A stretch of DNA of 64,000 nt from contig JAOTOL010001646.1 in the NCBI GenBank assembly GCA_034440575.1, positions 3,649,501 to 3,713,500 of the forward strand. Direction: 5' to 3'. Position numbers and translations under genes: made by a program. The notes under the pieces are model-generated. The model was not told the origin of the DNA. It made no database searches and was given only the letters and a program-made list of their open reading frames with translations. Position 1 is the first letter of the stretch. Every line of letters begins with the position of its first letter. The stretch is from Imbricaverruca yamaguchii. Its lineage: Eukaryota > Arthropoda > Thecostraca > Neoverrucidae. Below are positions 4,501 through 10,500 of the stretch, in pieces.

Positions 4501-7500
4501 GCAGGTCCTCCTGGTCGACGATCAGGCCTTCCGAGCGTAGGTCACAGCACGTGAGCCGCAGCATCGCACTAGCCGACCTGCTCCGTGTACTTATCCGTGT
4601 AATTATCCGTGTACTTATCCGTGTACTTATCAGTGCACTTATCCGTGTACTTATCCCAGTCGGCGCAAACATATTGTGATTGTTGATACTTTTATGGCAG
4701 GCGCTTTTTCACATACGACAGACCGCGCACATATGGGACCTACCGCTATAAGTAACCTGCAATGGTGCACCTAAACAGCACACTCTCAATGCTCCATATA
4801 TTCAGTCCAGTTGTCAGATTCCTGATGCTGCCCTGAAACAATGGTAGCCACTAGGACCCACAGCCATATCTAGCGATGAACACAAGCATACATCACATTC
4901 CTGGCACACACCTATATCTCGGTTCATGCCTAGCTCAGTGTGCTCATATGCATATCACCCCAGGCTCATCAGAGCATACCATCAGCTCACCTGCGGCATC
5001 TTCCCCTGTGTCACCCCGCCGGTCACCTGTGATGCCCCCCCCCGCTGTGCCACCCCGCCGGTCACCTGCGACGCTCCCCAGCTCACCGGTGACGCCCTTC
5101 TGGCCGTGTCGACTGCTGAACTTGTCGCCCAGCTCGGGCCGTCGCGTCTGCCGCAACAGCAGCTTGATGAGGAACGCCTCCTCGGCGTTGGAGGAGATCA
5201 TCACCTTCTCGACGTGCGACGCCACTGGGCCTTTGTACCTGCACCACAGACAAGTCCATTACCTACTGCCGCCGGGCCCTCGTACATGCGTCACAGACGA
5301 GAGCAGTCTCCTGCCGCCACCGGGTCCTCATGTTTCCATCGCAAACAAGCCCAATCACACATACTAACACCGGGGTCTAACCATATGCAGTTCTGGATCT
5401 CAATTATTGTATTGTTCTAGCAATATAAAAATTGAAATGATTGCTTCCTACAATATACCAGTATGATGTCATAGTGGGATGTCACAAATGATGCTTAGAA
5501 AGTTGCATCTCTTCCGATTTCGAAGGAGTTTGAAATGTTCATCGGTTCATTCAGACCACCTTGCATCATCCCGCATCCGATGACTTATTTGTATTCAGCT
5601 GTTGAAGCTAAGCGATCTGCGTCATGACACATTCTGTGAGCAGACTCAACAATTCCCTGAATTAGCTGTAAAACCTCTCTCGCGACACTCATGCTTATCG
5701 CTGTTCACAACTTCTTGCCAAAAACAACATCAAAGGACAACAACTTCAGAATCCGAAAACACAACACAGCACAAAATGCTTAACGAGAAAACAGTAGGTT
5801 TGAAACACGCATAATCGAAACATACAGTTTTAGAGAATGAAGCCACAAATGTGTGCTTATTCCGTGACCTTAGGTCACGCCGTTGATACGCTACGACGCC
5901 ATACTCTGGCCATTCGCCTAGGTTTTCTCCCATACCTAAGAACTCACCCTTGTGAAGAACAATCACAGTGGCCAGAGGTTTCCTATTCCTGTTTCCTACC
6001 GGAGGCTACCAGCTCACAAATGCAACAAATGTTCAGCAATCATTGGTTAAAATACTCATTAAAAACAAGAACTGACTAAACAAGAAAGCAAATTGCACAA
6101 CTAATCGCGTGGGTCGATATACCATAAGCATGCACTTCGGACTCCGTGCCAAGGTGACAGCTGCATGATGTACACGCTTCCGCATCTCAACACTTACGTG
6201 ATGGACATGGCTCTGCAGCCCAGCACTCACGTAACGAGCACGTATCTGTACTCAGGTACTCACGTGATAGGCACGTCCCTGTATCCCAGTACTCACGTGA
6301 TAGGCACGTCCCTGTATTCCGGTACTCACGTGATAGGCACGTCCCTGTACCCCGATACTCACGTGATAGGCACGTCCCTGTACTCCGGTACTCACGTGAT
6401 AGGCACGTCCCTGTACCCCAGTACTCACGTGATAGGCACGTCCCTGTACTCCGGTACTCATGTGATAGGCACGTCCCTGTACCCCAGTACTCACGTGATA
6501 GGCACGTCCCTGTACTCCGGTACTCACGTGATAGGCACGTCCCTGTACCCCGGTACTCACGTGATAGGCACGTCCCTGTACTGGTACTCACGTGATAGGA
6601 CGTCCTGTACCCCGTACTCACGTGATAGGGGTCCGTTTTACTCCAGTACTCGTGATAGGCACGTCCCTGTACCCCGGTACTCACGTGATAGGCACGTCCC
6701 TGTACCCCAGTACTCACGTGATAGGCACGTCCCTGTACCCCAGTACTCACTGATAGGCCGTCCCTGTCCGTCTCGTGGGATCCGGTACTCACGTGATAGG
6801 CACGTCCCTGTACCCCAGTACTCACGTGATAGGCACGTCCCTGTACCCCGGTACTCACGTGATAGGCACGTCCCTGTACCCCAGTACTCACGTGATAGGC
6901 ACGTCCCTGTACCCCAGTACTCACGTGATAGGCACGTCCCTGTACCACAGTACTCACGTGATAGGCACGTCCCTGTACCCCAGTACTCACATGATAGGCA
7001 CGTCCCTGTACTCCGCTACTCACGTGATAGGCATGTCCTGTATTCCGGTACTCACGTGATAGGCACGTCCCTGTACCACAGTACTCACGTGATAGGCACG
7101 TCCCTGTACCCCAGTACTCACGTGATAGGCGTCCCTGTACTCCGGTACTCACGTGATAGGCGTCCCTGTACCCCAGTACTACATGATAGGCACGTCCCTG
7201 TACCCCAGTACTCACGTGATAGGCACGTCCCTGTACCACAGTACTCACGTGATAGGCACGTCCCTGTACCCCGTACTCACGTGATAGGCACGTCCCTGTA
7301 CTCCGGTACCACGTGATAGGACGTCCTTGTACCCCAGTACTACTGTAGGCCGTCCCTGTACCCCAGTACTCACGTGATAGGCCGTCCCTGTACCCAGTAC
7401 TCACGTGATAGGCACGTCCTGTACCCCAGTACTCACGTGATAGGCACGTCCCTGTACTCCGGTACTCACGTGATAGGCACGTCCCTGTACCCCAGTATCA

Positions 7501-10500
7501 CGTGATAGGCACGTCCCTGTACCCCGGTACTCACGTGATAGGCACGTCCCTGTCGGTACTCACGTGATAGGCACGTCCCTGTACCCAGTACTCACGTGAT
7601 AGGCACGTCCCTGTACTCGGTACTCACGTGATAGGCACGTCCCTGTACCCAGTACTCACGTGATAGGCACGTCCCTGTACCCCAGTACCCGTGATAGGAC
7701 GTCCTGTTACTACGTGATAGGCCGTCCCTGTACCCCAGTACTCACGTGATAGGCACGTCCTGTCCCAGTACTCACGTGATAGGCACGTCCCTGTACCCCA
7801 GTACTCACGTGATAGGCACGTCCCTGTACCCCAGTACTCACGTGATAGGCCGTCCCTGTACCCCAGTACTCACGTGATAGGCACGTCCCTGTACCCAGTA
7901 CTCACGTGATAGGCACGTCCCTGTACCCCAGTACTCACGTGATAGGCACGTCCTGTACCCCGGTACTCACGTGATAGGCACGTCCTGTACCCCAGTACTC
8001 ACGTGATAGGCACGTCCCTGTCCCAGTACTCACGTGATAGGCACGTCCCTGTACCCCAGTACTCACGTGATAGGCACGTCCTGTATCCAGTACTCACGTG
8101 ATAGGCCGTCCCTGTATCTCGGTACTCACGTGATAGGCACGTCCCTGTACCCCAGTACTCACGTGATAGGCACGTCCCTGTACCCCGGTACTCACGTGAT
8201 AGGCACGTCCCTGTACCCCAGTACTCACGTGATAGGCACGTCCCTGTACCCCAGTACTCACGTGATAGGCACGTCCCTGTACCCCAGTACTCACGTGATA
8301 GGCACGTCCCTGTACCCCAGTACTCACGTGATAGGCACGTCCCTGTACCCCAGTACTCACGTGATAGGCACGTCCCTGTACTCCGGTACTCACGTGATAG
8401 GCACGTCCCTGTACCCCAGTACTCACGTGATAGGCACGTCCCTGTACCCCAGTACTCACGTGATAGGCACGTCCCTGTACTCCGGTACTCACGTGATAGG
8501 CACGTCCCTGTACCACAGTACTCACGTGATAGGCACGTCCCTGTACCCCAGTACTCACGTGATAGGCACGTCCCTGTACCCCAGTACTCACGTGATAGGC
8601 ACGTCCCTGTACCCCAGTACTCACGTGATAGGCACGTCCCTGTACTCGGGCTGCTGTCGCGGCGTCCCGGCCGGCGCATTCAGCGGGTTCATGGTCACCG
8701 TCGGCATCGACTTGTTCACCAGCACCTGCTTGTTCTCCACGATCTGCTCGGTACCGTACAGCTATCAGTCACGGGAATCGTAGGAGAGGATGGCGCTGTA
8801 TGACCGAAGCAGTCGAAGCGCCCCTAAGCCCAAATAACAAGTAGGAGAGGATGGAGCGGCATGGGAACACGCCCCTCGAACTCGTCAACTTAACTATTAG
8901 AATTAGGGTGAGATGAGGCCACCATTCCACTTTTTGAACCTTCTACAACATGGCGTTCCCAACCCAGTAACAAAAGCGAGAGTGCAGATATGCGACCTGC
9001 AAGGAGATGTCTGGAAAGACTAGCGTAGTGAAACCCCGGTGGATAATACCCGTGCCAGTCTACTGCTTATGGGGGAATATCAGCTCTTTAACCCAAGAAG
9101 CCATCACATAGTTCAGGGGTTCCCAAATCAGAACACTTCCATGTGGCAATTCAACTTTGAAGACTGCATGCTTTCAATGCAGATGAACACATGGTGTGCA
9201 TACAATGGTGCGACATGCTGTGCTTTGTGGGGCGAGAAATGAGTTAATGTAGGGACGAATGTGCCTTCATAATGGTTGACCCCTACTGACCCGGTGCCTT
9301 ATTATGAATTTTACCGACATACACAGCCCAGTGCCATGCACCGGGGGCCGCAGTGACTAAACTGCTAGCTTACCGACCTACCCAACCCGGTACCATGCAC
9401 GAGAGTGGCAGTGACTGAACTGTTAGTTCAAGAGTGCATCCCTGCACCACCACAATCGGCGTGAAAGATTGGCGACGCCACATGACTCAACGGTCGACGT
9501 GTCGTAAAACCAATAGCCATCACCTACGGGTGACCCCGGGTGACCCCGGCCGACCCCGGCTGTGTGACCGCACCTCCCCCGGCGCCGTGATGCCGTCGGC
9601 GTCCAGTGTGCGGTGTTTCCAGATGGGCTCCTTGGTGACGGCGTCCACCAGCGGACCCTGGACGCGGTCGTGCGTCTGGTTGGCGTACCTGCCGCCGCGG
9701 TCACCGGGTCAGCGACTGCACCAGTCGTGGTCAGCGACTCGTGGTTAGGAGCGGCTGGTGACGGCTCAGTCGCGGCCATAGGAGGCCACGCCGGTCACGG
9801 CCGTAGCAGCCCGGACGGCAGTCGGGGCCCAGCCCAATAACAGGCTCGGCATTTGATGGCCGCCAATCGCCGCAACTGCAGCTGTGATCATGGACAATCG
9901 CACAGCCGGAAACATCGAAGCGCCCCTAAACCCAAATAACTAACGGCCGGAAACACGCGAACAGTTCGCACGCATACACGTGTTGTACAACGACGATTGG
10001 CTGCCAGCAATGGTCAACAGGGGTGGAGGTGCTGACGCTGTGGCATGGCGGTGAACGTGTCCGTCTCGTGGCGGAACGGAGCCGGGTCCGGGTCCGGGTA
10101 GAACGACAGCGCTAACATCTGGCTCCCTGGGACCACTGCGTGAGACTGGCGACGGCATGTGACCACCCAACTGGTGGCATCGTGAAATAATCCAAGAGAC
10201 GAAATGTACGACCCTTAATATACCAGGAGGTGCTGAGTTTACTCAACATCAAAAGTAGCGTTAGGGATTATGCTATATTACTCAACGTTTCGGCCAGGGG
10301 CCATCATCAGGAGTAAACTCAGCACCTCCTGGTATATTGAGGGTCGTACATTTCGTCTCACGCAATGTCTAAAACCCAGGAGCGCCTACGTTCTTTCTTC
10401 GTTGTATGAAATAATCCAAGTTCTTTCGATAGCCGACATATCTTTGACAAAAAAAATGATGAAACAAGAAAACGTATGAACGCTAGCGAACTCACCCAGA

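Follow-up and report, generated by a model that had tools for sequence, protein, structure and literature searches.

The minus strand of the 64,000-nt window analysed here, from the barnacle Imbricaverruca yamaguchii (assembly GCA_034440575.1, contig JAOTOL010001646.1, positions 3,649,501 to 3,713,500), carries the gene POLR3B (RPC2) according to protein homology, and at the predicted 3' end of exon 18 of this gene begins a 33-bp minisatellite in which every unit repeats the junction of exon 18 with intron 18. We interpret this array as a junction minisatellite of the type called mirage in lancelets, which probably arose by repeated tandem duplication and would be spliced from the exon-proximal donor, the 67 other donors being bypassed decoys. 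We assign this reading a probability of about 0.8.

Structure and extent of the exon 18 donor array

The predicted POLR3B protein had as its best database relative the RPC2 of Amphibalanus amphitrite (91% identity). Spliced alignment to that protein placed 22 exons inside the window, from 31074 down to 1278, and the final exon just beyond the window edge, near coordinate -1109 of the window; the alignment also proposed exons 23 and 24, which were judged spurious. All exon ends of POLR3B are predictions by protein homology, with the A. amphitrite protein as guide. The peptide of exon 18 ends in ...DVPIT and is joined to YKG of exon 19, and the same is seen in human RPC2. An earlier note on this DNA had named the gene POLR3B and the exon number 18; both were borne out, as homology predictions, by the A. 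amphitrite alignment and the human match. The features of the array and its surroundings are as follows.

8625..8743, minus strand: predicted exon 18 of POLR3B, 119 nt, whose last 21 nt supply the exon-derived portion of the repeat unit (human RPC2 match and spliced alignment to the A. amphitrite protein)
6165..8645, minus strand: minisatellite of 33-bp units that each reproduce the end of exon 18 with the start of intron 18 (Tandem Repeats Finder, TRF, and cutting at donors)
8619..8627, minus strand: first, exon-proximal donor CAC/GTGAGT (unit list, frame check)
8621..8623, minus strand: TGA that would be read in frame upon use of any later donor (frame check)
6560..8106, minus strand: array interior with 72/78 of the indel bases, likely uncorrected by short reads (unit alignment)
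6165..6263, minus strand: distal diverged units, two of them with 8 and 9 differences from the consensus (unit list, unit alignment)
5239..8624, minus strand: predicted intron 18 of POLR3B, 3386 bp (spliced alignment)
5087..5238, minus strand: predicted exon 19 of POLR3B (spliced alignment)

TRF called 33 bp x 75.0 at 6219-8645, and cutting the minus strand at the donors pushed the array end to about 6165, by way of two to three decayed distal units. The unit consists of 12 intron bases (GTGAGTACTGGG) and 21 exon bases, the latter identical to the last 21 bases of exon 18 at 21/21 positions. Thus, a 33-bp unit of coding and intron bases, as the earlier note had it, was confirmed, whereas its figure of 20 coding bases was one too low; likewise, the array is present, but the span assigned to it, 6188..8743, includes all of exon 18. 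Alignment to the unit gave 74.5 unit-equivalents, and about 70 units is a sound estimate as an assembly figure. The intronic part of the array (6165-8624) amounts to 2460 bp, or 73% of intron 18, in agreement with the description of a 3.4-kb intron made up mostly of the array. Consensus was matched by 23/41 full-length units. The distal end of the array looks older, because its two most distal units differ by 9 and 8 bases.

An exact 24-mer of the unit matched 50 times in the 767-Mb assembly, and 50/50 matches lay within the exon 18 array. By this exact 24-mer, the copies elsewhere in the genome that characterise a dispersed satellite or mobile repeat were not found. A hairpin of the unit was also considered as a cause and rejected: the donor can sit in the stem, but the fold was not clearly better than shuffles (z of -0.43 to -0.75 for RNA; -1.33 and -1.73 for DNA).

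From the end of exon 18 onward there are 68 GTRAGT donors, 62 of them within the identical 11-mer CACGTGAGTAC, and their predicted U1 pairing lies between -6.9 and -7.7 kcal/mol. The splicing machinery does face about 70 copies of a functional-looking donor, as had been claimed. The frame into exon 19 is open with the first donor only (1/68), and the other 67/68 give a TGA right behind the exon. Substitutions in the array hit 1/429 donor-hexamer sites versus 57/1919 other sites; the decoy donors are not wearing away.

Apart from the array, the A. amphitrite RPC2 database protein has about 45 additional residues at the position of intron 4 here, which are likely a retained intron in the annotation.

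Junction arrays at other sites of the genome

Other arrays of POLR3B also start at or cross predicted exon ends, as listed below.

1278..1531, minus strand: predicted exon 22 of POLR3B, donor ATG/GTGAGTGAGGG (spliced alignment)
887..1279, minus strand: a further donor array of 29 bp x 13.9, more diverged than the first, starting at the exon 22 donor, with 7 junction copies (TRF, unit list)
2090..2297, minus strand: 100-bp x 2.1 duplication spanning the acceptor predicted for exon 21, its upstream copy a pseudo-exon start (TRF, sequence)

An array at exon 19 (5005-5097) was considered as a third donor array of POLR3B; it holds a single junction copy, so it is not claimed.

A local sample totalling 264 kb, with 1 kb of overlap, combined the window with 20 segments of 10 kb taken from its contig. 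GTRAGT was present in the unit of 5/75 minisatellites of this sample, with 1.81 expected from shuffles (P 0.04), and four of these five distinct minisatellites lie at predicted exon donors, namely POLR3B exons 18 and 22 and two in the NPC1 gene. No exon was seen beside the fifth array (L026). The NPC1 query from this genome was 84% identical to the A. amphitrite entry, which ranked first, versus 75% to the Pollicipes pollicipes entry. Its gene (contig C1413; L020:7361-7633 and 9457-10000, on into L034) has two donor arrays, with units of 76 bp and 23 bp, and a 110-bp acceptor array stands in the intron that also has the 23-bp donor array.

In a pattern search of the whole genome, five array starts were inspected among the matches listed (contigs C38, C42, C60 and C66). 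One of them adjoins an M41-peptidase exon (Pfam E 4.5e-7); this locus (L030:2949-3200, C42) has a 20-bp array, with GTGAGT units mostly alternating with GTTAGT units. Another adjoins a PI-PLC-like exon with E 3.5e-4 to solved bacterial PI-PLCs, a name that is tentative because there was no Pfam match and the top match was a designed TIM barrel (3.2e-4). Behind this exon (L032:2279-6143, C66) lies an array of 38 bp x 101, larger than the exon 18 array, and the intron contains 100 GTGAGT sites including the exon's own donor, the other 99 of which read CAGGTGAGT. As for the other three starts, one follows an open frame with a unit-like tail, one follows an open frame of uncertain nature, and one is bare.

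We counted junction copies for 74 junctions of 37 introns in POLR3B and NPC1, a copy being at least 17/24 matching bases. The count took POLR3B exons 1-22 with the last exon and NPC1 model exons 2-17, the doubtful NPC1 model exons 1 and 18 being dropped, and each intron was scanned for its own two junctions. Own introns held 119 copies in 94,532 bp compared, versus 20 copies in 3,403,152 bp compared for other introns. At least one own-intron copy was found for 11/74 junctions and two or more for 5/74: the donors of POLR3B exon 18 (68 copies) and exon 22 (7), and in NPC1 the donor of intron 7 (2) and the donor (33) and acceptor (3) of intron 9. Arrays touched a junction in 6/17 cases in the two genes, against 0.92 expected under random seeding (P 0.0001); discounting the three arrays that had pointed to these genes, the same test gave P about 0.06.

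These results show that junction arrays recur in this genome, and only suggest that arrays prefer junctions. A plain reading is a minisatellite-rich genome that tolerates arrays bordering exons, since the first copy of the junction keeps its position. Genome-wide, GTGAGT triples with gaps of 12-36 bases numbered 40,942 (21128+19814) versus 39,420 for the reversed word, overlapping, and gave no excess by that control. TGGAGT triples numbered 14,839 versus 28,810 for the reverse; without a clean control, the counts of the donor word were not used as proof. On a broader view, to which we give somewhat less than even odds, exon-intron junctions of this barnacle may give rise to minisatellites again and again, at donors as well as acceptors and in many genes, so that the spliceosome would routinely meet up to about 100 near-identical strong donors yet join the exon-proximal one. 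If true, this would be a natural experiment on the selection of one 5' splice site from a series of copies.

Two further observations concern introns and the window. Similar translated stretches occur in several introns (window 10665-10854, 13537-13757 and 21512-21781, and the NPC1 stretch L020 near 7050-7250), and a dispersed repeat family is likely because of this recurrence. The minus strand of the window at 51433-57096 also has a GNAT acetyltransferase-like exon (Pfam Acetyltransf_7, E 3.8e-7) with upstream open frames, and minisatellites lie close to these at 56338-56896 and 55688-55887.

Formation of the array and choice of the donor

Repeated tandem duplication across the exon 18-intron 18 junction would have created the array, which may have grown through slippage or unequal exchange. 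Since a duplication at an exon edge does not displace the first copy and adds the further ones to the intron, the array is presumably close to neutral. The whole array would be removed with intron 18 from the first donor, and the other 67 donors would be passed over. We infer that this first donor is used nearly always, because RPC2 needs PIT joined to YKG. In a test pre-mRNA, as summarised from earlier work in PMC8724738, one or two U1 snRNPs were found and only one U2-containing complex. Decoy donors that are bound yet unused are therefore plausible.

Several points weigh against this interpretation. With two identical donors in constructs, the downstream one is often favoured, a choice that would be unproductive here. 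The excess of arrays at junctions is borderline after discounting the arrays that led to these genes. In addition, human IFI6 uses later units of its minisatellite as donors, according to PMC4526556.

The same use of later units in IFI6 also favours an alternative that we regard as unlikely, namely that later donors are sometimes used in regulated unproductive splicing, so that the mRNA stops and would be degraded and array length helps set the RPC2 level. The in-frame TGA behind 67/68 donors of similar predicted U1 pairing fits this, and over three arrays distinct variants were fewer in the donor hexamer than elsewhere, but not significantly (P 0.07). However, the stop requires no selection, because any phase-2 exon followed by a GTGAGT donor yields NNG TGA. 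Phase-2 exon ends precede 4/6 homology-supported donor arrays (POLR3B exons 18 and 22, the PI-PLC-like exon and NPC1 model exon 10), whereas phase 0 applies to the other two, those at NPC1 model exon 8 and at the M41 exon, six being too few for a test. Lancelet mirages, moreover, are reported without aberrant mRNA in PMC3902484.

Less probable still is an assembly artefact, the in-silico multiplication of one junction or of some short repeat. Compared with the unit, the array has 61 bases deleted and 17 inserted, 11 of the latter in one bin, and the concentration of 72/78 of these bases in the interior makes the interior consensus unreliable; the remaining 6/78 fall in the decayed distal end. 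There are no indels in the first 518 bp from the exon, nor in about 300 bp at the far side (6524-6225), and an error-prone interior with clean edges is what short-read polishing of a true array in a long-read assembly is expected to leave. The divergence of the distal units speaks against in-silico multiplication, and arrays of the same build are present at other loci of this genome. With such edges and interior indels, the array itself appears hardly doubtful, as would suit a real array left half-polished, and its copy number is approximate, the exact figure being unsure.

Equally improbable is that a cluster of CACGTG E-boxes was retained as a bHLH binding site with the donor copies as passengers. 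CACGTG does occur 66 times in 6165-8630 versus 12 times in the remainder of the window; the motif results because the exon end CAC meets the donor GTG, and junction arrays elsewhere (exon 22, NPC1 and PI-PLC-like) have units without it. We favour the bypassed junction minisatellite.

Comparison with known junction minisatellites

To our knowledge, most work on competition among identical 5' splice sites has used constructs with two sites. In the present genome, predicted exons are followed by as many as 68 and about 100 donors in a row, and in POLR3B any later choice stops at once. Donor use here would reveal how far order and exon context alone fix the splice site, and at what cost.

The earlier note held that no array of this kind had been described. 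This did not stand, because lancelet mirages (PMC3087553, PMC3902484) and human IFI6 precede it, and further arrays exist in the same genome. Mirages are minisatellite-like repeats that span exon-intron boundaries in the lancelet Adh3, globin, troponin C and PGBD5 genes; according to the same two papers, their units measure 10 to 160 bp, they are unstable in length and also somatically, and normal splicing is reported as undisturbed. In the barnacle, too, splice signals lie within tandem units that cross the boundary, donors as well as acceptors are involved, and several genes of a single genome are affected. In the exon 18 array, the repeats extend over the predicted boundary with 21/21 exon-end bases and 12 intron bases, the units contain the 68 GTRAGT and 62 identical 11-mers, and a homogenised interior is combined with a diverged cluster edge, the homogeneous edge being the exon side. 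In the lancelet, by these sources, the globin examples count 3 to 6 units, each about 155 bp long, and the units of Adh3 measure 10-72 bp, in contrast to the barnacle array of about 70 x 33 bp; splicing and length variation were examined in lancelets, whereas the barnacle arrays are known from the sequence of one assembly.

Later units of IFI6 keep the frame, whereas using any later POLR3B donor would bring an immediate stop. The two cases are alike in that units of a minisatellite next to an exon end provide additional donors. The IFI6 minisatellite was reportedly found by Turri, Cuin and Porter in 1995 to provide several splice donors. For human IFI6 (6-16, G1P3), PMC4526556 describes two downstream units used as donors, giving three mRNA species, and the 1995 study on multiple donors of this minisatellite is cited in PMC2572611, PMC2915984, PMC4526556 and PMC3618361. 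In human segmental duplications, internal tandem repeats at exon-intron boundaries (PMC2812944) are similar in having minisatellite-size units at such boundaries that affect gene structure. They differ in averaging about 4 units and 30 bp per unit, with many lying within coding exons, and in being studied as a source of new introns.

A literature search at title and abstract level, with subscription journals mostly outside it, found no crustacean minisatellite at an exon-intron boundary, and matches for barnacle and minisatellite concern, by their titles, population genetics or genotyping of other animals. The kind of array is already known, and what is new is the barnacle lineage, the copy number and the recurrence in several genes, by which the mirage phenomenon is carried from lancelets to a crustacean.

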